Shown here piece by piece: positions 25,642 to 36,849 of a stretch of DNA of 40,737 nt. The stretch's first letter is position 1; the number at the start of each line of letters is the position of its first letter. The stretch lies in the IMG/VR virus record IMGVR_UViG_3300030104_001146, positions 1 through 40,737 of that record; one strand, 5' to 3'. Under the pieces are notes generated by a model. It was not told the origin of the DNA and made no database searches. It worked only from the letters and a program-made list of their open reading frames with translations. The position numbers and the translations under genes are program-made. This stretch comes from a virus.

Positions 25642-25856
25642 TCAACGTATTGAACAGCAGTTATTTCATCTTCAAGGTACTTATGAATGCCTTGAAGTTT
25701 TATTGTGCCTTCGTGTACAATCTTCTTGATAACCTGTGCATCTTCTTTATTTCTAAAAACTTTGTCGATGTCTTTCATAGGTAGTCCTCCAAGATCAGAT
25801 ACTATGTTTCCTTTAGAGTCTAGTACAATTTTAAAAGTGAGTAAGGTTGCTTCCAT
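25638..25856 (-). CDS. Small hypothetical protein after RNR (72 aa)
   Basis: The product begins MEATLLTFKIVLDSKGNIVS, beta-rich at first, then charged and helical (DIDKVFRNKEDAQVIKKIVH). Its ATG shares a base with the RNR stop (TAATG), so it is translated by coupling. It is the last gene of the left-reading arm and converges on the last right-reading gene. Function unknown; a role tied to nucleotide metabolism is conjecture from coupling. Confidence 0.7.
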   Translation of the reverse strand: MEATLLTFKIVLDSKGNIVSDLGGLPMKDIDKVFRNKEDAQVIKKIVHEGTIKLQGIHKYLEDEITAVQYVD

Positions 25857-27775
25857 TATATTATCTCACATGCGCCTGCAGTACAGGCTAGTTCTTTAGT
25901 GTTTTCAGTCATGTCTTCCTTTTCGTATTCAGTTATGCGACTCCAATCAATTTCATGTACAGTCTTTTCCATCCATTCATTGTATTCGTCTTCAAATATT
26001 TCTTGATAAGGTGCTTGTTGGTAGGAATGATCTGCATAAGGAAGGAATGAAACTCCTGATATTCTATCAAAGTTATCCCATACCCATGCGCCAACCTTTA
26101 ACCATTCTGATTCTCTAACTGAGATGGTGGCTGATGGTTTGTGTTCACACCAATTGTCTTGATACATCTTCCAAATTTCTAAATGTTTTATTGCTGACAA
26201 GTCAATCCTTGTTAAAGAATTAGATGGAGACTTGATTGGAAAATAAAATACTAATGTATGTTCAGGCTTAGTGATATCGTCTTCGTGATACACTCCTTGA
26301 TCAACCATTAACTGCGCAACAGGATCTTTCTTATCGGCACGAACAGTTCTTAAATAGTATTCGCTGTGTCTTGTATGTATTCCACTAGCACTATCAACCA
26401 ACTGACTCACAGTACCGCTAGGTTTAACACATGTAATAGCAACCGATTGTTTGATTCCTAGTTTCTTTGCCCACTCTTTATTTTTAATGACAGATACATT
26501 TTTAAAGTTTTGTAATCTTCTTGGTAAGTTATCTCCTTCATACATCTTTTTATTATCCATAATGCCTGTAAGAGAAACACCAAGTAATGCTTCTTCTTCT
26601 GTGTTGTCTTTCCAAGCTTTTGTTAAGTATCTAAAGTTAGTTAATGTTGCTTGAAACGTACCAAGAATAGTAGCCAATTCTACTTTTCTTTCTAAGCTTT
26701 TCCAAGTATCTTCAGGTCTAACAACAACCTCTGTTAAATTACAGAACTGTTTATTCCTTAGTATGATTTCACTGCATGGATTACATCCAAAGTCCTTGTA
26801 CTCTTCTCGCCTACCATTCTTAGAAGCTTGTTCTTCAGCAGCTTGACGATTAAAAATACCACGTTCACCGCTTTTAGATTCGTATAAAGACAACCACTCT
26901 TTCATGAATGCGCCCATCTCTGCTGAGTCTGTATATGCTACTGAGTTATTGGACAATGCTCTGTGTTGACTATGCTCCCACCAAGAACCTGATTTAGCAT
27001 TGCGCATACGCTCGTCTGAGAGGTTGCTGAGTGAGATCAAAGCGCTACGTCTAACACCACCCACCACAACAACTTCTGCGATCTTACACATCAAATCATG
27101 ACAATCAATTGAAACAAGTTTCTTTTGGTTTTTACTGAGTGCATCTTTAAAAATGTTAATAGTAAAATGCATGAGATCATCTAAAGGTGCTGGACCACTT
27201 GCACGACCACCAAAGGTTTTAAGTCTTGCGCCTTGAGGTCTAATATTACTGAGATCCCATTGAGGAATATGTCCTGCATAAAGCAAAGACATGAGTTCTT
27301 TATAAGCTTTAGCCCATCCAATCTTTGAATCAGCCACTTTAATTATAGTATCTGTAGGATGTAGCTCTTCAGGAAGATCAGGAAGTTTATTTATGTACTG
27401 TCGCTCAACACTGAAGCCAACACCTGTACCACACATAAGAATGTAAAGTGTTTCATCAAAAGCTCTAGGTGTATCAACAGCAACATAACTACAGTTAAAT
27501 CCTGCTACGTTGTCTCGTTCTAAAGCTGTACCTGCTGACATTAAAGCTCTCATGCTCGGCATAATTTCTAAGTTAAGTACCGCTTGTTCTAATTCTTTTC
27601 TAATTTTAGATATGTCTGTTTTGTTATTCTTTTTTAAATGCTCTTGCATAAAGTCAAAGTATCTTGCAACTGTCTCTTGCCAAGTCTCTCGTCTTCCTGT
27701 ATCTTCGTTCCATCTAGCATATCTGCTAAGATGTATGAACTCTTGATAAGTTGTAGGTAGTTTAGTTTGTTCCAT
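25856..27775 (-). CDS. nrdJ: Class II (adenosylcobalamin-dependent) ribonucleoside triphosphate reductase, monomeric
   Basis: The 639-residue enzyme reduces ribonucleotides to deoxyribonucleotides for phage DNA synthesis, using B12 to form a thiyl radical. Visible active-site features are Cys95 (GFNCSYV), the NPCSEI loop with Asn332, radical Cys334 and Glu336, Cys345 (QFCNLTEV), and the C-terminal redox pair Cys631/Cys636 (ACTAGACEI). This arrangement matches the monomeric RTPR type of Lactobacillus leichmannii, which is about 100 residues longer. It needs host or scavenged cobalamin. It starts after AAGGAAAG, overlaps DUF3310 by 14 bases, and ends in TAATG into the next gene. Confidence 0.95.
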   Translation of the reverse strand: MEQTKLPTTYQEFIHLSRYARWNEDTGRRETWQETVARYFDFMQEHLKKNNKTDISKIRKELEQAVLNLEIMPSMRALMSAGTALERDNVAGFNCSYVAVDTPRAFDETLYILMCGTGVGFSVERQYINKLPDLPEELHPTDTIIKVADSKIGWAKAYKELMSLLYAGHIPQWDLSNIRPQGARLKTFGGRASGPAPLDDLMHFTINIFKDALSKNQKKLVSIDCHDLMCKIAEVVVVGGVRRSALISLSNLSDERMRNAKSGSWWEHSQHRALSNNSVAYTDSAEMGAFMKEWLSLYESKSGERGIFNRQAAEEQASKNGRREEYKDFGCNPCSEIILRNKQFCNLTEVVVRPEDTWKSLERKVELATILGTFQATLTNFRYLTKAWKDNTEEEALLGVSLTGIMDNKKMYEGDNLPRRLQNFKNVSVIKNKEWAKKLGIKQSVAITCVKPSGTVSQLVDSASGIHTRHSEYYLRTVRADKKDPVAQLMVDQGVYHEDDITKPEHTLVFYFPIKSPSNSLTRIDLSAIKHLEIWKMYQDNWCEHKPSATISVRESEWLKVGAWVWDNFDRISGVSFLPYADHSYQQAPYQEIFEDEYNEWMEKTVHEIDWSRITEYEKEDMTENTKELACTAGACEII

Positions 27776-28035: not shown

Positions 28036-28200
28036 TTACTCCTCCTCTTCGTTGTTCATATAGTTCGGTAAATAAACTTCTACAAAACAATTACAATTAG
28101 GACAAGAAAGATTAGTAACAATGGAATATTCTTCGTTTTCATGTTCAATATCGTGATCTCCTCCCCAAATTAAGTCATGATTACAGTACCAACAGTTCAT
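28036..28200 (-). CDS. Zinc-ribbon small protein (54 aa)
   Basis: The frame is open from 28224, but ATG at 28200 is preceded by GAGGAGGAAC and begins MNCWYCNHDLIWGGDHD. Two CxxC knuckles (CWYC and CPNC) about 30 residues apart form a zinc ribbon. The C-terminus is acidic (NNEEEE). Small zinc ribbons of this kind are common beside phage nucleases. It is probably nucleic-acid or protein binding. Its ATG shares a base with the endonuclease stop. Confidence 0.8.
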   Translation of the reverse strand: MNCWYCNHDLIWGGDHDIEHENEEYSIVTNLSCPNCNCFVEVYLPNYMNNEEEE

Positions 28201-28637
28201 TATTGTTCCTCCTCTTCTTTCCATTCTTTAGGTAAACTCTCGGTGCTATACCACCTGAATCCGTTCTTTGATGCCCACTCAGCGTGACTTCTTTTTGTTC
28301 CATCTCTTCTCATCTTTGCATTAGGCATAGGTGCTGAAGGATTAGAAAATAAAAATACTAATTCACAATCATCTGGAAGTATCTCTTTAATCCATTTGTA
28401 TTTATTGTATTCAGCATAATCCCAGAACCTTCCCTTTGCTTCTAAGTATATAACCTTACCTTCTAAGATGCGAATAAAATCAGGATGATATTTATGTGGA
28501 ATAGAATACTCTATGATTCCTTTGTGGTGTTCCCAATGTTGTAGTTCTTCTTGGTGAAGATCGTACTCCCATTTAGAGTCGTATCCTTTTGGTAGTCCTT
28601 TCTCGATTGGTCTTTTCTTTCTTGGTTTTCTTTTCAT
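28200..28637 (-). CDS. Endonuclease I (T7 gp3-like Holliday junction resolvase)
   Basis: The 145-residue protein keeps the fold signature of T7 endonuclease I. Glu24 (SKWEYDL), Asp53 (YHPDF), Glu66 and Lys68 (YLEAKGRF) correspond to T7 Glu20, Asp55, Glu65 and Lys67. The C-terminal half has FLFSNPSAPMPNAKMRRDGT and KRSHAEWA, typical for the family. It resolves branched DNA during replication and packaging and may help degrade host DNA. A basic N-terminus (KRKPRKKRP) probably contacts DNA. The size matches T7 gp3 (149). Confidence 0.93.
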   Translation of the reverse strand: MKRKPRKKRPIEKGLPKGYDSKWEYDLHQEELQHWEHHKGIIEYSIPHKYHPDFIRILEGKVIYLEAKGRFWDYAEYNKYKWIKEILPDDCELVFLFSNPSAPMPNAKMRRDGTKRSHAEWASKNGFRWYSTESLPKEWKEEEEQ

Positions 28638-28866: not shown

Positions 28867-29158
28867 AAAAATCATAATCGCTTGTGTTTGTTTTTTGTTC
28901 GTTAATTAAGTCTTGTTGTAATTGTTCTAAAGTTAATTGTGGTTTTCTTTTTACTCTTTTGTAGATCCATTTCAAAGAATAGGCACTCAACATAAACTTT
29001 CTATTTAAATAAACATGTGTTTGTTCTGATAAATATTCTTCTAAATTATTTACGTTAATTTGTTTCGCATCTTCTTCGTCAGGAATAATACTGCGCAACC
29101 AACGCACCAGTAGTTGCTTACCTTTTCGCCTTACTTCTTTAGCTCTTTTGCCATTCAT
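28859..29158 (-). CDS. Conserved phage hypothetical protein (99 aa)
   Basis: The product starts MNGKRAKEVRRKGKQLLVRW and contains YLSEQTHVYLNRKFMLSAYS followed by LKWIYKRVKRKP. Proteins with this basic N-terminus and the (Q)T(H/Y)xYxxRxxxLSxxxLKW pattern recur in T7-like marine phage replication regions, as I recall, without known function. GAGG lies six bases before the ATG, and the gene overlaps the exonuclease end by 20 bases. Confidence 0.7.
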   Translation of the reverse strand: MNGKRAKEVRRKGKQLLVRWLRSIIPDEEDAKQINVNNLEEYLSEQTHVYLNRKFMLSAYSLKWIYKRVKRKPQLTLEQLQQDLINEQKTNTSDYDFYG

Positions 29159-30011
29159 TCGTAACCTCTTCTACTCTTGGTTGTTTAACTACAGTCGTAA
29201 AAAATGCTAGGTTTTTCGCATACTTAAATACTCTCAAACCTTGTCCGTTGTTTGAATCTTTATGACATGTGAATTTGTGTCGGCAATAGACACATTGTTT
29301 AGGAAGCTTCATGTTCCCTGATTTTCCGTCAGGTATAGGATTATAGCACAGGCTGGGCGGATTGTCAAGCTTTAATTCTCTTTTTAATTTAGCGATCCTG
29401 TGTTTGATGTTTGGTTTATCCATTTCTGCTGGAATTAGAAGAGCAAGTTCTCCTGTTTCTTTGTTGATTGCTAAGAAACCTCCGTTGTTTGTACCTTCGC
29501 TTGCTTCATAACCTGCAAGTTGCGCCATATAACCAAACGGATCGTCTTCAGGCAGTGTTCCATTTCTAAATTTCTGGAAAGCAAAACCTGAAGCTGACTT
29601 AACATCAACAACTTCTCCGTCTATGATACAATCCATATGACCAAGCACACCTGATACCTTAACTTCTTTTTGTTCTCCTTCAACTTTATGTCCTGCTAAA
29701 CGAACCAACATCAATACGACTTCTTCTAAGATATGACCATAAAGAAACTTAATCTGTGTTGAAGGTTTCATAGGCAGTGGTTCATCTTCTGATTTAAAGT
29801 CATACCAAAGCTGACGATTTGGTTTACCTACATTAGACATTCTCAAAGTTTCTTTCTTTCTTTCGTAAGGCTTTGCCCATTGAAGAAGAATATCTTTCAT
29901 GGCATTGCCAAATTCTTCAGCATCTTTTTCAGATATGTCTAGTGCTTTGCCGTTACTAAGCCCATCAAGTTCTTTGTAGATGTCTCCTATTAATGTATTT
30001 AATTTTTTCAT
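29139..30011 (-). CDS. PD-(D/E)XK exonuclease (Cas4/RecB-type)
   Basis: The 290-residue nuclease has the motif order of the RecB/Cas4 nuclease clan: His93 (YGHILEE), Asp127 (GHMDCII), Asp136-Val-Lys138 as the D-x-K catalytic core, and QLAGYE (Gln164, Tyr168). Cys222, Cys240, Cys243 and Cys249 near the C-terminus could hold zinc or an iron-sulfur cluster, as in Cas4. In marine T7-like phages this gene replaces T7 gp6 and is thought to supply exonuclease for recombination and host DNA recycling. It has no Shine-Dalgarno and starts through an ATGA overlap with the upstream gene. Confidence 0.82.
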   Translation of the reverse strand: MKKLNTLIGDIYKELDGLSNGKALDISEKDAEEFGNAMKDILLQWAKPYERKKETLRMSNVGKPNRQLWYDFKSEDEPLPMKPSTQIKFLYGHILEEVVLMLVRLAGHKVEGEQKEVKVSGVLGHMDCIIDGEVVDVKSASGFAFQKFRNGTLPEDDPFGYMAQLAGYEASEGTNNGGFLAINKETGELALLIPAEMDKPNIKHRIAKLKRELKLDNPPSLCYNPIPDGKSGNMKLPKQCVYCRHKFTCHKDSNNGQGLRVFKYAKNLAFFTTVVKQPRVEEVTNEWQKS

Positions 30012-30514
30012 AGTTTTACTGGTATCTTTTCTATAATTTGTTGAGCAGTATTTCTATCTGTCTTAAACCACTCTCCGTTATTTTTCTTAGCAATCTTTTT
30101 AAGTTCTCGCATAACTTTTGTTTCTGCTTTTCTTCTGTCGTTAAATCTTCTTGAATAGATAAGTTGATAATCTCTATGTGGACTGCTTGTTTGATAACCA
30201 TTACATCTGTCTTCTGCATCAACAGCCATACCAATCTTGAGCCAACCATCAAAAGAAGGATTAGCTATTATATATACATAACCTTCTGTAGTTTTTTCAT
30301 ATCCTTTTAAAGATGAGAAAGCAGCGCCTTCAAATGTTTTATATCTTCCTGCTTTGTACAGAGGATGAGACTTAGGTATGTATTTTCCATTAACAAACAT
30401 GCGTGTATTGTTTTTCTTTTCATGTGAGTTTACTCGTCTTCTTCCGTCTGCTTGTCCAACGTACCACCATTCTCCGTCTTCAAATCTTATGTTTTTTGTT
30501 TTAGTGTGTTTCAT
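30008..30514 (-). CDS. GIY-YIG-type nuclease (T5orf172/MUG113-like)
   Basis: Residues 78-150 show a T5orf172-like GIY-YIG domain: GYVYIIANPSFDGWLKIG, Arg103 (DAEDRCNGYQTSSP), Glu131 (RRKAETKV) and a closing NGEWFKT. The N-terminal 70 residues (DGEWWYVGQADGRRRVNSHE, FVNGKYIPKSHP) look like a separate substrate-binding part. The domain is a nuclease fold used by homing endonucleases. The gene starts at a repeated junction motif (MKHT), has AAAGGAG ten bases upstream, and ends ATGA into the exonuclease. It may be a homing element or a repair nuclease. Confidence 0.82.
   Translation of the reverse strand: MKHTKTKNIRFEDGEWWYVGQADGRRRVNSHEKKNNTRMFVNGKYIPKSHPLYKAGRYKTFEGAAFSSLKGYEKTTEGYVYIIANPSFDGWLKIGMAVDAEDRCNGYQTSSPHRDYQLIYSRRFNDRRKAETKVMRELKKIAKKNNGEWFKTDRNTAQQIIEKIPVKL
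30501..30513 (-). repeat. Junction motif copy 3
   Basis: TGAAACACACTAA on the minus strand. It ends the PD-(D/E)XK gene (ETH-stop) and begins the GIY-YIG gene (MKHT) in another frame. Confidence 0.85.
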
Positions 30515-30968
30515 TTTTGATTAACTCCTTTGTTTTAAAACAATATTTTTTAAATAAATCTATTTTTATGAGACAAGCAATCTTGGGTTGTGAGTCTCCA
30601 AAACCAGTTAGTTTTCTTGATTGTATATTATTAGTTATAATACATTCTATAATTTTAATAGGAGTTATATATAAAAGTTCTTGTCCTGTAAAAATAATCC
30701 AGTAATCTGCTTTTGTTGTTAATAAAGCGGAAGGTTTATCATACATACTTAATTCAATTATAATATTACCTGTCTCGCAACTTTTGTAATCTCCTTTAAT
30801 TTCTATTTTTTTGTTTGTTTCTGGTATGAAAAGATCATAGTCTTTAAACTTACCATCAATTAAAGTAGCACACGGATATTTATTTTTTATTTTGTTTAAC
30901 AAAAATTCTTCTATGTTTCTGCCTCTCTTTAAATCTTTTATAAAATTATCTCGGCTAGTGTGTTTCAT
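30501..30968 (-). CDS. PD-(D/E)XK endonuclease-like protein (155 aa)
   Basis: Residues 43-72 fit a restriction-endonuclease-like core: Asp45 (FKDYDLFI), Glu56-Ile-Lys58 (KKIEIKGDY) and a strand with acidic residue (GNIIIEL). TTKADYWIIF follows, typical of this clan. The rest is Lys/Ile-rich with several cysteines. AGGAGG lies seven bases before the ATG. The gene begins MKHT and ends NETH, both from the repeated junction motif. Base composition looks more AT-rich than the flanking replication genes, suggesting acquisition. The target specificity is unknown. Confidence 0.7.
   Translation of the reverse strand: MKHTSRDNFIKDLKRGRNIEEFLLNKIKNKYPCATLIDGKFKDYDLFIPETNKKIEIKGDYKSCETGNIIIELSMYDKPSALLTTKADYWIIFTGQELLYITPIKIIECIITNNIQSRKLTGFGDSQPKIACLIKIDLFKKYCFKTKELIKNETH
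30955..30967 (-). repeat. Junction motif copy 2
   Basis: TGAAACACACTAG on the minus strand, one base different from the other two copies. It begins the PD-(D/E)XK gene (MKHT); the upstream gene stops at its first bases (GTATGA). Confidence 0.85.
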
Positions 30969-31552
30969 ACTAGTTCCTCCTGTGGTTTAAAAAATTTTTT
31001 AATAAAGGCTTCTATACTACTTGCTTGATAGTAAGTTTCATTATAACTGCCATGCATTCTCCATTTACCAGTTCCTATAATGTAATCAAATGTATATCTT
31101 CTTTTATTACCCTTACCATCTTTTCTAGGTTTAGCTTTAGTAGTCAAAGTAACTGTGTCTTTTTTTATTTTGTATTCTATTTGTTCATCGTCAAGAATTT
31201 TCTTTACTTCTTTTTTGGTTTCTGTGTCACCTTTAAATGTAGGTTTATCGGCTACTAAAAATCTAGTATAAAAATCTTCTATACCTTTAGATGTGTAGTG
31301 TTTATCAGGATAACAACCCTTATTATAAGGCGCCCATCTTCCAGTTGTAGGATAATAAGAATATAACTTATGTTTATAATGAATCCACATCATATTACCT
31401 TCTTTTTTTTCTTCATACTTAATTCCTTTTTCTTTTAAAAAGTTAGAAGCATCTTCTATGGTTTCATCTGTATCATGTTTAAAAATAACTTTGCCTTTAG
31501 AATTAGTTCTAGAATACCTCCATTTATATTCTTTTTCTTTAGTGTGTTTCAC
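30965..31552 (-). CDS. Duplicated-domain hypothetical protein (195 aa, GTG start)
   Basis: GTG at 31552 is chosen because AGGAG lies nine bases before it and the protein then begins M-K-H-T like its two neighbours; the ATG at 31561 has the Shine-Dalgarno touching it. The protein holds two similar halves of about 80 residues, each with a helix and an Ile-x-Tyr-x-x-Lys-Lys strand. The first half ends TGRWAPYNKG ... YTSKGIEDFYTRF and the second TGKWRMHGSY ... YQASSIEAFIKKF. It is basic and may bind nucleic acid. No family recognised. The start lies within the last codons of DNA polymerase. Confidence 0.65.
   Translation of the reverse strand: MKHTKEKEYKWRYSRTNSKGKVIFKHDTDETIEDASNFLKEKGIKYEEKKEGNMMWIHYKHKLYSYYPTTGRWAPYNKGCYPDKHYTSKGIEDFYTRFLVADKPTFKGDTETKKEVKKILDDEQIEYKIKKDTVTLTTKAKPRKDGKGNKRRYTFDYIIGTGKWRMHGSYNETYYQASSIEAFIKKFFKPQEELV
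31539..31551 (-). repeat. Junction motif copy 1
   Basis: TGAAACACACTAA on the minus strand. It encodes the last codons of DNA polymerase (ETH-stop) and, shifted, the start of the duplicated-domain protein (GTG, then KHT). Confidence 0.85.
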
Positions 31553-33302
31553 TCCAGTCATCTCCTATTTTATATTCGGCATCTAAAGGACACCTCATGT
31601 TATAATAATCTCCTGAGTCTTCAATTGCTTTGACTGCAAGAGTACCAAAATCTTTAGCGTGGTCTTCTCTAACTTCAACTTGCCACTCGTCATGTATGTT
31701 TGCAACAAACTTATAATCTAAATTATTTTTAGTTGCTTCTTCATCTAACATGATCAATGCTCTTTTCATTACGATTGCTCCACCGCCTTGTAGTAAACTA
31801 TTCAGAGAAGCGTGTGCGTTTCTTATAAATATCTTTCTACCATCTATTCCTTTGAGATAACCTTTTGCCGATGCCTTTGTAACTCTCTCTCGAAGTCGTT
31901 TAAATGAAGGTTGATTAGCAAAGAAGCGTTCCTTAAGTCTAGCTCCATCTTCTTTGCTTCCTCCAACCACTTGTCCAATTTTGGTATCTCCTGCTCCGTA
32001 TAAGAGTGCATAGATGAAAGTTTTTGCCTGATCTCTTGATTGAAGTCCTGCAGTTTTTTGATTCCTTGTGTGGATATCTCCATTAATAATTTCATTTGTA
32101 AATTCCTCGTCTTTCATATAATGTGCTAACATTCGTAGCTCCAACCCTGAAGCATCAATGCCTACTAATTTATTTCCTTTTTTAACTGTCCAACAAGACC
32201 TACATTCTTCTCCGTAAGGACTCTTAACAGAAGGAACTTGAGCCATGTTGGGATTACGATGGGTCATTCGACCTGTAATAGTACCATTAGGTATCACAAA
32301 CCCATGTACTCTTCCATCATCTTCAACAAACTTGATCCAAGATTCTACTTGAGCAATTCTTTTCTGAAGAAGAAGATACTCTGCAATGAGTTGAGCTTCA
32401 GGTATATCTGTTATTTTATGTAGAACTTTCTCGTCAACAATCGGTTGCCCTGTTGGTGTAAATTTCTTAGGCTTCCAACCAAAGTCTTGTAAGTATTCTC
32501 CAATTTGTTTTCTTGATCCTAAATTAAAAGGGATCTCGTATGTACGAATAACAAAAGGTTCTCCATCTAATAGATGTTGTAGTTCATCGTCAAGAAGTTT
32601 TGTTCTCTTTTTTGTTGTTTCATTCTGAGCCATACGACCTAACTTACCACTCTTTAAAATAATAGGTGTCAGTTTTTCTTTCATTACTTTAGGCTTGAAA
32701 GTTTCGTGTACTTCTTCCTCAACCTCATTCATTCTTTTATAAAGACTGGCTAATAAGCTCTCGGCTTTTGTTTGATTAAACTCGAAACCATCCTGTTCTT
32801 GTTCTTTTAATATTAAACTTACTCCTTGTTCTAGACGTGCGCTTTCTTTTGAAAATCCTGCCGACTCTTGTTGAATAAGTCTATGATAAACTTGAGTATT
32901 AAGCTTAACATCTCTAACACAGTAGTCCATCATCTCTTCAGAGTAGTGTGAGTAGTCTTCAAACTCAATCTTATTGTAGTTAAGTTTGTATCCCCACATC
33001 TCTAAGCTATGTCCTCCCTCTCGTACTGGATTGAATAGTCTAGACAATACAAGCGTATCAATTACTTTCTTGTTTGAGAGATCAACTCCTGTTAATTTTT
33101 TAATAACAGGAATATCAAACCCTATAATGTTATGCCCTAATAACACGTTTGCTGATTTCAATAACTCAAGACCTGACTCTAACTGGTGAGGAGCAAACCG
33201 ATAGATTTTGTTAGAATCAAGATCTTGAGCCACGATACACCACAGTTTTGTGGCTTTCAAATCGTCTGTTTCAATGTCAAATACAAGCTTAAGCATAGTC
33301 AT
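31539..33302 (-). CDS. Family A DNA polymerase with 3'-5' exonuclease (T7 gp5-like)
   Basis: The replicative polymerase, 587 residues from the ATG at 33302 (an alternative ATG lies two codons later, inside the helicase 3' end). Exonuclease motifs: Asp9/Glu11 (FDIETD), HNIIGFD and YCVRD (Asp131). Polymerase motifs: A, GIDASGLELRMLAHYM (Asp383); B, RDQAKTFIYALLYGAG with Arg423, Lys427 and Tyr431; C, NIHDEWQVEV (His537-Asp538). Tyr431 occupies the position of T7 Tyr526 and E. coli Phe762, an arrangement often linked with lytic phages. It is shorter than T7 gp5 (704), mostly before motif A and between motifs B and C. Like T7 gp5 it ends in His. It overlaps helicase upstream and a cassette gene downstream. 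Confidence 0.97.
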   Translation of the reverse strand: MTMLKLVFDIETDDLKATKLWCIVAQDLDSNKIYRFAPHQLESGLELLKSANVLLGHNIIGFDIPVIKKLTGVDLSNKKVIDTLVLSRLFNPVREGGHSLEMWGYKLNYNKIEFEDYSHYSEEMMDYCVRDVKLNTQVYHRLIQQESAGFSKESARLEQGVSLILKEQEQDGFEFNQTKAESLLASLYKRMNEVEEEVHETFKPKVMKEKLTPIILKSGKLGRMAQNETTKKRTKLLDDELQHLLDGEPFVIRTYEIPFNLGSRKQIGEYLQDFGWKPKKFTPTGQPIVDEKVLHKITDIPEAQLIAEYLLLQKRIAQVESWIKFVEDDGRVHGFVIPNGTITGRMTHRNPNMAQVPSVKSPYGEECRSCWTVKKGNKLVGIDASGLELRMLAHYMKDEEFTNEIINGDIHTRNQKTAGLQSRDQAKTFIYALLYGAGDTKIGQVVGGSKEDGARLKERFFANQPSFKRLRERVTKASAKGYLKGIDGRKIFIRNAHASLNSLLQGGGAIVMKRALIMLDEEATKNNLDYKFVANIHDEWQVEVREDHAKDFGTLAVKAIEDSGDYYNMRCPLDAEYKIGDDWSETH

Positions 33303-35001
33303 CAAACTCTATGTCTTTGCCATCGTCTTCGTAATCTTCTGTTGGAATCTCGTTTAAACGACCTGTCTCTCTGTCGTAAAGAAGCCGACAAGCCAGACCA
33401 ACATCACCTGTGTATCTTGATTTCAATACACGAAGCTGTGTTGTATTTGATTCTTGAATATCCTCTGCTTGTTGATTTCTTTCTAATGCGATTACACAAT
33501 CACTTAACTGTGCAATAGATTGACTACCTCTCAAATGACTTAGACTTACTTGGACTCCATTCTCATGTCCTTTGTTGCCGTCTACTCGTCTAAGATGAGA
33601 TACTAAGATAAGTCCTGCACCTGTTTCTTCGCAAATAGATCTTAACTTGGTCATAATAGAATCAATGGCTCGTCTCTCGTCTCCTTCAAACATGGCGCTG
33701 ACTAACATGTGTAAGTGATCGACCACCACCCATTTACATCCACAGCCAACAATCATGTATCTTAGTTTAGAGAAGATGTCTTCGATAGAGTTCGTTCCGA
33801 AATGTGCATGTACCCATACACGATTCTCATTCTTTCCGTTGTAAAGTATATCAAAGTAATCATTGATTTCTTCTTTAGAAAGCTGTTCTAATTCTTGTTC
33901 AATGTATAGTCTCTTGTTGGCTTCGATAGATAGGATACCACTGATGGTTCTATTAGGATCTTCTTCTAAGGCAATGATACCTACATTATCTTCTGTGTTT
34001 TTAATAAGCCAATGTTCTAGTTCTCTAGTTACACTAGACTTACCCAAGCCTGTACCACCTGTGAAGGTTACAAGTTCTCCTTGTCTCAAGCCATACAGTT
34101 TCTTGTTGAGTCCTTCATAAGGATAAGGAACACTCGCTTTCTTTTCTCTTGTAAAGAACTTATCTTTAAACTCTGATACATTAATAACACCTGCAGGAGT
34201 ATAAGTCTTGGCTGACCACCATGCTTGACTGAATGCGTTTCCTTTGTTGGCAATCAACATATCATTTGGATCATTGAACTGTTCAGGCAGTGTCATAATC
34301 TTTGCTTTGCTTGGAGTAAATAACCTAGCAACTTTCTTTGATGCTTCTTTCCCTGCTTTGTCGTTGTCAAAACAAATGACGATGTTATCAAAAGATTCTA
34401 AAAACTCTAGGCTTTCTTTAACATCTTTGACTGCGCCTGAAGCACCTCGTTTGATAGATACGACTGCCCATTTTGATCCAAGCATTTCATATCCTGCCAT
34501 TGCATCACACTCACCTTCAACAAGAGTAACATACTTACCGCCACCACTAAAGAGTTGCTCTCCGAATAGACCTGCTTCTGTAGTAGAGCCAGTCCAACTA
34601 AAGTTTTTAGATATTCCGTCATGGCTTTTGTATCGTACCTTTGTAGCAACCATTTGATTGCCTGAATAAAAAGGATAGATGTGATCGCCTGTTGCTTCGA
34701 CAACTTTAACTCCGTACTTAATGGCTGTTGCCTTAGATATTTTACGATCTGTTAAGTCTGTGAATGTTCCGTTGGAAGGAACGCTTAACTTATTTCTGTG
34801 ATCTTTTATTTTAGATACAGTTGTTGTTTTTCTTTCTAATCCTTGAGACTCACATGCCTTGTCATAATCGTGGAAGTGTGTGTCGCAACTAAAACAGTGC
34901 GCTGATCCGTCTTTGTTCTTACCGACTGGATCAGATCCACCACACTCAGGACAAGGCAGTTTGTATTCATCCCAATTTGATCCTTCATGATCTGTCATCA
35001 T
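33289..35001 (-). CDS. Bifunctional primase-helicase (T7 gp4-like)
   Basis: The 570-residue protein primes and unwinds DNA at the fork. The N-terminal zinc ribbon has CPECGG and HCFSC (Cys17, 20, 36, 39). The TOPRIM primase core includes VEGECDAMAGYE and VICFDNDKAGKEA. The RecA/DnaB-like helicase has Walker A GGTGLGKSS, Walker B-like WVVVDHLHML and the arginine-bearing ILVSHLRR. The acidic tail (ending EDDGKDIEFDDYA) resembles the gp4 tail that contacts the polymerase. GGAG is eight bases before the first of two adjacent ATGs. The 3' end overlaps the polymerase start. Confidence 0.97.
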   Translation of the reverse strand: MMTDHEGSNWDEYKLPCPECGGSDPVGKNKDGSAHCFSCDTHFHDYDKACESQGLERKTTTVSKIKDHRNKLSVPSNGTFTDLTDRKISKATAIKYGVKVVEATGDHIYPFYSGNQMVATKVRYKSHDGISKNFSWTGSTTEAGLFGEQLFSGGGKYVTLVEGECDAMAGYEMLGSKWAVVSIKRGASGAVKDVKESLEFLESFDNIVICFDNDKAGKEASKKVARLFTPSKAKIMTLPEQFNDPNDMLIANKGNAFSQAWWSAKTYTPAGVINVSEFKDKFFTREKKASVPYPYEGLNKKLYGLRQGELVTFTGGTGLGKSSVTRELEHWLIKNTEDNVGIIALEEDPNRTISGILSIEANKRLYIEQELEQLSKEEINDYFDILYNGKNENRVWVHAHFGTNSIEDIFSKLRYMIVGCGCKWVVVDHLHMLVSAMFEGDERRAIDSIMTKLRSICEETGAGLILVSHLRRVDGNKGHENGVQVSLSHLRGSQSIAQLSDCVIALERNQQAEDIQESNTTQLRVLKSRYTGDVGLACRLLYDRETGRLNEIPTEDYEDDGKDIEFDDYA

Positions 35002-36325: not shown

Positions 36326-36354
36326 ATTATAAGGCTTTATTAAGTTCTTGTCAA
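36326..36354 (-). promoter_or_regulatory. Perfect sigma70 promoter P1, tandem to P2
   Basis: TTGACA (36349-36354), 17 bases, TATAAT (36326-36331) on the minus strand, again all consensus. The -35 lies in the last codons of the upstream gene. It would add a roughly 225-base leader that runs into P2. Confidence 0.85.
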
Positions 36355-36849
36355 GTTATTATTTTTAGTGGTCCACCAATCAGGCTTGGCTCTGCCTTGT
36401 TCCCATTTAGCATAGTGTTTCTCGTTGATACAGTAGTTGCGATAAGCAACAATAGGATCATCGTCTTTGTATTGATCTGGCATAGCCTGTGCAACTGGTG
36501 TCATAGTTTTTAAAGGTATGTTGTTTGGCGGTTCAGACAAAAGAATATACAAGTCATTTACGCTTTTATGTTTTTTATTGTAGCGAAAAGCGTACTCATC
36601 ACCTAATGCTAAGAAATGTCTAAGAAGCCAATAATAATTTTCACTGGTTTCTCTTGCCCAAACAGTGCAAGGATGATTCCAGTAAGCTCTCTTGTATAAA
36701 CCTACCTTGTCTGCATACTCATCACCATCTAACTCTCGGTGTGCTGTGCATAACATCTGTGCTGTTTCTAAAGGCATTTTGACTAACATCTTATCGGGCT
36801 GTGCTTTAGCTGAAGCTATCGGACAATCATCAAAATAAAATATGTTCAT
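36340..36849 (-). CDS. Conserved phage protein (169 aa)
   Basis: The product begins MNIFYFDDCPIASAKAQPDK and contains VKMPLETAQMLCTAHREL, then YWNHPCTVWARETSENYYWL and QAMPDQYKDDDPIVAYRNYC. I recall many marine phages carrying proteins of this pattern without a proven role. Conserved His, Cys and Trp residues suggest an enzyme or metal site, but I will not name one. AGAGAG lies before the ATG. Its 3' end contains the -35 of promoter P1, so it marks the boundary between the small-gene block and the replication genes. Confidence 0.7.
   Translation of the reverse strand: MNIFYFDDCPIASAKAQPDKMLVKMPLETAQMLCTAHRELDGDEYADKVGLYKRAYWNHPCTVWARETSENYYWLLRHFLALGDEYAFRYNKKHKSVNDLYILLSEPPNNIPLKTMTPVAQAMPDQYKDDDPIVAYRNYCINEKHYAKWEQGRAKPDWWTTKNNNLTRT

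Follow-up and report, generated by a model that had tools for sequence, protein, structure and literature searches.

The stretch of viral DNA analysed here (40,737 nucleotides, hereafter the window) carries on its minus strand a primase-helicase gene followed by a family A DNA polymerase, three small genes, a Cas4-domain exonuclease and then a T7 endonuclease I-type gene. The polymerase (31539..33305, 588 aa; Pfam DNA_pol_A, E 1.7e-56; PHROG DNA polymerase, E 1.1e-153) has the C-terminus ...GDDWSETH, and the conserved right flank of the locus is formed by the exonuclease (29139..30011; PHROG Cas4-domain exonuclease, E 1e-49). Between them lie cassette 1 (30965..31552), an add-on gene that encodes a protein of 195 aa (P2) without functional assignment, cassette 2 (30501..30968), which encodes a PD-(D/E)XK nuclease-like protein of 155 aa (P3), and cassette 3 (30008..30514), the core cassette adjoining the exonuclease, which encodes a GIY-YIG nuclease (T5orf172/MUG113) of 168 aa (P4), all three on the minus strand. 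The T7 endonuclease I-type resolvase gene (28200–28637; Pfam Phage_endo_I, E 2.3e-09) is located about 1 kb downstream of the cassettes, and a T7 gp2.5-like annealing protein is also encoded in the window. Additionally, a ribonucleotide reductase gene (PHROG 367; 25856–27775, minus strand) lies beside the replication genes and a pyrimidine dimer glycosylase-like gene (Pfam Pyr_excise; 36340–36849) lies in the early region.

The cassettes are joined by a short repeated motif. An exact-match search of the window found exactly three perfect copies of TGAAACACACTA, all on the minus strand (31540–31551, 30956–30967 and 30502–30513), with A, G and A as the 13th base in copies 1, 2 and 3 respectively, and every coordinate given in the original prediction was correct. 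Each copy is a gene start and reads GTG/ATG-AAA-CAC-ACT (V/M-K-H-T), and the predicted AGGAG-type ribosome-binding sites are seen ahead of all three genes (AGGAG at 31566–31562, AGGAGG at 30981–30976 and AAGGAG at 30530–30525). Read in another frame, the motif ends both the polymerase (...DDWSETH) and the PD-(D/E)XK gene (...KNETH), as had been proposed from their SETH and NETH termini; in the third frame, the TGA of copy 2 is the stop codon of cassette 1 (...PQEELV). The GIY-YIG cassette 3 has no motif on its 3' side, where the start of the exonuclease gene reads ATGAAAAAATTA.

The motif is the end of the polymerase coding sequence (…W-S-E-T-H-stop) and not an independent cassette element. 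Copy 1 (TGAAACACACTAA, 31539..31551, minus strand) is the original and belongs to the polymerase tail AGGAGATGACTGGAGTGAAACACACTAA (31539..31566, minus strand), here called the dock, which holds a ribosome-binding site (31566–31562), a GTG (31552–31550) and the polymerase stop codon (31541–31539). This tail codes for G-D-D-W-S-E-T-H-stop and, in the +1 frame, A-GTG-AAA-CAC-ACT gives the GTG start, with a GGAG about nine bases upstream that is made up of the glycine codon and the next codon. Because the tail is doubly coding, a gene joined right after the stop would obtain its start signals at once and leave the polymerase protein intact. The second junction is a decayed copy of the same tail (AGGAGGAACTAGTATGAAACACACTAG, 30955..30981, minus strand) that holds motif copy 2 at 30955–30967, and the third (AAGGAGTTAATCAAAAATGAAACACACTAA, 30501..30530, minus strand) comprises a ribosome-binding site and motif copy 3 (30501–30513). 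It had been suggested that the motif restores the polymerase C-terminus after insertion, a view that has to be abandoned since the polymerase was never interrupted: the motif is its tail and the internal copies are decayed duplicates.

The tail consensus in the clade is G-D/G-x-W-S-E-T-H-stop. Among 126 clade loci that were not picked by the tail pattern (loci from L198 on were found with it), 125 use AGT as the serine codon and 125 carry the GGAG, compared to 4 of 22 more distant relatives in each case, and dual coding of the polymerase tail is, by these comparisons, a feature of this clade. Motif-class starts are found at 27 of the 59 second or third genes in the intervals of relatives and at none of 804 ORFs outside the interval; some second genes, mainly of an Hjc-like family, start without the motif. 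The synonymous threonine codon of the tail tracks the cassette family rather than polymerase distance (linkage of 0.70–0.98 vs 0.34–0.47 at equal polymerase distance in most bins above 0.1, and 0.57 in one bin), which suggests that the tail itself moves together with the cassette or is under selection to match it, and that the next 100 nt do not. The possibility that V-K-H-T is a conserved protein N-terminus was considered and rejected, given that P2, P3 and P4 homologues elsewhere start differently: cassette homologues at other genome sites (L038 at the start of the locus, L099, L110 and L175) lack this start. V-K-H-T gene starts in such phages are therefore a signature of location and not of protein family.

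In relatives the same codon is used by a remarkable variety of genes. In all 79 readable loci that a search with the polymerase alone had retrieved, a gene starts exactly at stop-11, with GTG (ATG once) and with the N-terminal pattern V/M-[KRTI]-[HPLR]-[TI], in which the third and fourth residues vary because of synonymous choices in the polymerase codons. In a wider set, 181 of 183 distinct clade loci start a gene at that codon, about half of this set having been found through cassette genes or the tail pattern, which makes 79 of 79 the cleaner figure. With interval genes called mechanically, the first genes of the wider set fall into a dozen or more unrelated families, most of which are nucleases (GIY-YIG, three PD-(D/E)XK types, Endonuclease VII, several HNH types) along with several without assignment. 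On a polymerase tree of 159 leaves the family of the first gene changes a minimum of 81 times, compared to 96–110 times for shuffled labels; polymerase relatedness predicts the cassette only weakly, and cassette turnover is accordingly very fast. An empty slot is essentially never seen within the clade, either in the 79 polymerase-found loci or in the 183 distinct loci. The empty site was found in HTVC115P/103P/104P (52–53% polymerase identity), where the exonuclease overlaps the polymerase directly. Degenerate cassettes are also few, with 3 clearly short ORFs in relatives. At the polymerase stop of L335, a one-base deletion shortens a PD-(D/E)XK cassette whose counterpart in the near-identical L338 is full-length, and this could be a pseudogene or a sequencing error. 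The clade members are exclusively metagenomic contigs, with no isolate inside the clade (best polymerase identity 53%), and from the nearest isolates we would guess a marine, perhaps SAR11-like, host.

Alignment of the polymerase–exonuclease interval, which the original prediction had put forward as its main check, revealed relatives with one, two or three cassettes that meet at the motif. Cassette 3 alone lies directly at the polymerase stop in L003 and L124, cassettes 2 and 3 are present in L001, L002, L005 and L085, and all three occur in the window. The expected zero-cassette state was absent from the clade and is represented by the three HTVC phages; conversely, relatives do not all share the same three genes, nor is the motif unconserved or missing at cassette edges. 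L124 provides the closest comparison: it is 97–99% identical to the window in the primase, polymerase (98–99%), cassette 3 (99%) and exonuclease (98%), and lacks one continuous 1038-bp stretch that corresponds to cassettes 1 and 2 of the window, with its edges at the motif. Alleles with and without a gene between the same conserved genes are likewise seen when the window is compared with L085, L001 and L003. Cassette 2 is 95–100% identical among L001, the window, L005, L143 and L090, compared to 73–96% (mostly 78–92%) in 100-bp polymerase bins of these five loci, and in L143 and L090, where a different cassette lies behind P3, identity falls to 46% and 42% directly after it. Relative to its flanks, P3 has by this comparison of sequences moved horizontally with edges at the motif. 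No clear excess of similarity was detected in the last 114 nt of the polymerase between pairs with the same cassette, the threonine codon alone being linked. Identity reaches 100% over P3-P4-exonuclease in L085 and over polymerase-P2 in L117, and L093 has the same P2-P3-GIY order. An assembly artefact was considered and is unlikely, as independent contigs obtained from different samples share the junctions.

The internal gene starts are copies of the tail of the polymerase of the same genome. Exact copies extend over 33 nt in L091 and L155, 28 nt in L119, 27 nt in L121, 26 nt in L093, 25 nt in L090 and 22 nt in L120, and the match falls to 12–14 nt in the internal copies of the window; the intact counterpart of the second tail copy of the window (GGAGGAACTGGAGTGAAACACA) is found in L093 and L119–L121. 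In complete intervals, P2, P3, a further family (C5) and some others are never last before the exonuclease and are always followed by a core nuclease, as expected if entry lies between the polymerase and the resident cassette. The motif on both sides is restricted to these add-on cassettes. The combinations vary: L001, L090 and L143 have the same P3 end in front of different GIY-YIG variants, and behind C5 the same 33-nt tail copy leads either to P3 or to GIY-YIG. These nested states support the earlier proposal that the polymerase 3' end is an insertion site, and the polymerase protein is unaltered in stacked relatives, in line with the proposed stacking without damage.

The idea of a modular nuclease island holds for P3 and P4, which are nuclease-like, and is not supported for P2, in which no nuclease domain could be detected. 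P4 matches Pfam T5orf172 (E 7.2e-14) and MUG113 (E 2.7e-11) and its GIY-YIG catalytic pattern is intact in 64 of 74 relatives; the nearest isolates with a P4 relative are the Roseobacter phages CRP-235 and CRP-2, at other sites, and the sole match in a PADLOC scan was that of the GIY-YIG domain to the candidate PDC-S57. P3 contains a conserved E56-x-K58 (the E-x-K motif is found in 51 of 51 relatives) and has no match among isolate phages; its best fold match is the homing endonuclease I-Ssp6803I (Foldseek probability 1.00, E 0.0086, TM ~0.43–0.45, 16% identity). A homing-endonuclease fold is thus indicated for P4 by its GIY-YIG domain and for P3 by its nearest fold, and none was found for P2, which had no nuclease domain or fold match in Pfam or in solved-structure sequence and fold searches; C5 had no nuclease match either, and solved-structure sequence searches with P2, P3 and P4 returned nothing useful. 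P2 resembles a tandem of two ~90-aa repeats in which TTGRW and SxxIExFxxxFF are conserved (window 30965–31552), and its homologues in L267 and L223 share the first repeat alone and have other C-termini. Additionally, L014 and L142 carry a P2 half-repeat and a GIY-YIG domain in one reading frame after the polymerase, with the M-K-H-I joint kept inside the protein.

The same families, again in the +1 frame, are found at the equivalent polymerase stop codon of a second, distant podovirus lineage (about 40% polymerase identity). There the nuclease frame extends upstream inside the polymerase gene and stays open for about 45 codons (MRQEDLF...), so that a long stretch is read in two frames and no GTG at the tail is used. 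GIY-YIG, PD-(D/E)XK and zinc-finger-bearing genes fused at the polymerase stop were noted in this lineage (L158, 3780–4490; L315–L394).

The polymerase stop probably serves free-standing endonuclease genes of the homing type as a landing site, and these genes would pass from one related marine podovirus to another. What suggests homing-type mobility is that the cassettes are mostly nucleases and have spread horizontally, that P3 is nearest in fold to a homing endonuclease, and that the ~40% lineage has the same families at this stop codon too. The nucleases would cut the DNA of relatives at or near the junction, and donor-templated repair would copy the cassette in, either through annealing of strands at the tail or motif or through ordinary recombination in the flanks; annealing at short homology is plausible because the tail is linked to the cassette and the next 100 nt are not, and the T7 gp2.5-like protein of the phage could carry it out. 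A new cassette would enter between the polymerase and the resident cassette, an event that could duplicate 22–33 nt of the polymerase tail and keep the ribosome-binding site and start of the resident. The duplicated tail would then decay to the 12–14 nt that still encode a start and a stop, an order suggested by the graded series of copies, and the repeated tails and motifs would allow gain, loss and recombination of cassettes. Where homing genes are active, alleles that are empty or degenerate are normally left behind. The locus departs from a standard homing locus in that the site is essentially never empty, degenerate cassettes are few and P2 has no detectable nuclease domain; constant occupancy together with few degenerate cassettes implies that either the drive is extremely strong or the phage benefits.

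Such a benefit might come from interference, with the nucleases destroying co-infecting relatives that carry another cassette and the slot being kept by selection at the phage level. Interference between co-infecting phages would result in constant occupancy together with constant turnover, and the slot in this clade is indeed permanently filled, turns over very rapidly and seldom holds a degenerate copy. A precedent exists in gp210 of phage PhiPA3, which blocks co-infecting PhiKZ (PMC11620839). Spread of the same cassette between lineages also needs transfer, however, and interference overlaps and is compatible with homing, for which it may simply be the reason why the genes are retained; as an explanation of its own we regard it as possible, yet doubtful. 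An equally tentative extension combines these elements into a permanently occupied combinatorial nuclease dock, in which the tail of an essential gene would have evolved start signals for the immediate expression of any nuclease that arrives, stacking would proceed by tail duplication, the cassettes would be kept as co-infection weapons and the empty site would be the losing allele.

A required function refilled by non-homologous nucleases through ordinary mosaicism (a Holliday-junction resolvase or a debranching nuclease, for example) would also fill the slot in essentially every clade member, almost always with an intact nuclease beside the exonuclease, and the Endonuclease VII and Hjc-like families do include resolvases. 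A resolvase role is nevertheless disfavoured because a separate T7 endonuclease I-type gene is present in the window and in 38 of the 49 relatives whose sequence is long enough, irrespective of the cassette, and no complementarity with other genomic resolvases was found. Two or three cassettes can coexist, the pelagiphages HTVC115P/103P/104P manage without any, and the fold of P3 is nearest to a homing endonuclease, all of which makes a required slot unlikely. Passive recombination, in which crossovers within the conserved end of the polymerase gene carry in any gene that happens to lie behind it, appears about as improbable. The overlap frame forced by E-T-H-stop would by itself account for V-K-[HPLR]-[TI] in first-position genes, and the polymerase shows no co-conversion tract beside common cassettes, but this leaves unexplained why most arrivals are nucleases of unrelated folds, why internal tail copies exist and why the outgroup lacks the GGAG/AGT dual coding, and the same families occupy this codon in another, distant lineage.

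Several elements of the homing-type landing site are already known, namely the exchange of homing genes at one position, the overlap of T4 homing genes with the ORF ahead of them and a homing enzyme with an Endo VII motif. The free-standing homing genes of T4 (SegF, SegC, MobA, MobC, MobE) are GIY-YIG or HNH genes between conserved genes and several of them overlap the upstream ORF, by 11 bp in segF, 20 bp in segC, 23 bp in mobA and 24 bp in mobC (PMC2988022). The locus differs from these in that one host-gene tail supplies a ribosome-binding site and start to many unrelated nuclease families, and in that cassettes stack with duplicated tails at a site that is almost never empty. According to Barth et al. 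(2023; PMC10448857), homing endonuclease genes (HEGs) of different classes replace each other at one position beside essential phage genes, include T5orf172 and PD-(D/E)XK families and have modular DNA-binding parts. The HEG islands of that study bracket essential genes on both ends, whereas the cassettes are known from the right side of the polymerase, and the sections consulted describe neither a base-exact common junction nor fossil tail copies (PMC10448857). F-CphI of cyanophage S-PM2 is a free-standing homing endonuclease with an Endo VII motif (PMC6083498) and shows that homing enzymes exist among the Endo VII-like proteins, a family also represented in the cassettes. I-Ssp6803I, a PD-(D/E)XK homing endonuclease, resembles cassette 2 as its best fold match, at the low TM and identity given above, and cassette 2 is not in an intron. 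T7 endonuclease I is also a phage nuclease of the same replication module, but it corresponds to a separate gene in the window. In the open-access full text, no description was found of a host-gene tail with start signals for many unrelated nucleases or of tail duplications as stacking joints, and a literature search on the C-terminal histidine of T7 polymerase returned nothing usable.

The locus provides a base-exact record of free-standing nuclease genes entering at an essential phage gene that stays unbroken, a record that comprises the doubly coding tail, tail duplicates at every stage of decay and close relatives with one, two or three cassettes in a nested series. It opens to experiment the questions of competition among unrelated nucleases for a single target and of whether phage–phage competition can keep homing genes filled. 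The other insertion sites of cassette homologues (L038, L099, L110 and L175) are also worth mapping.
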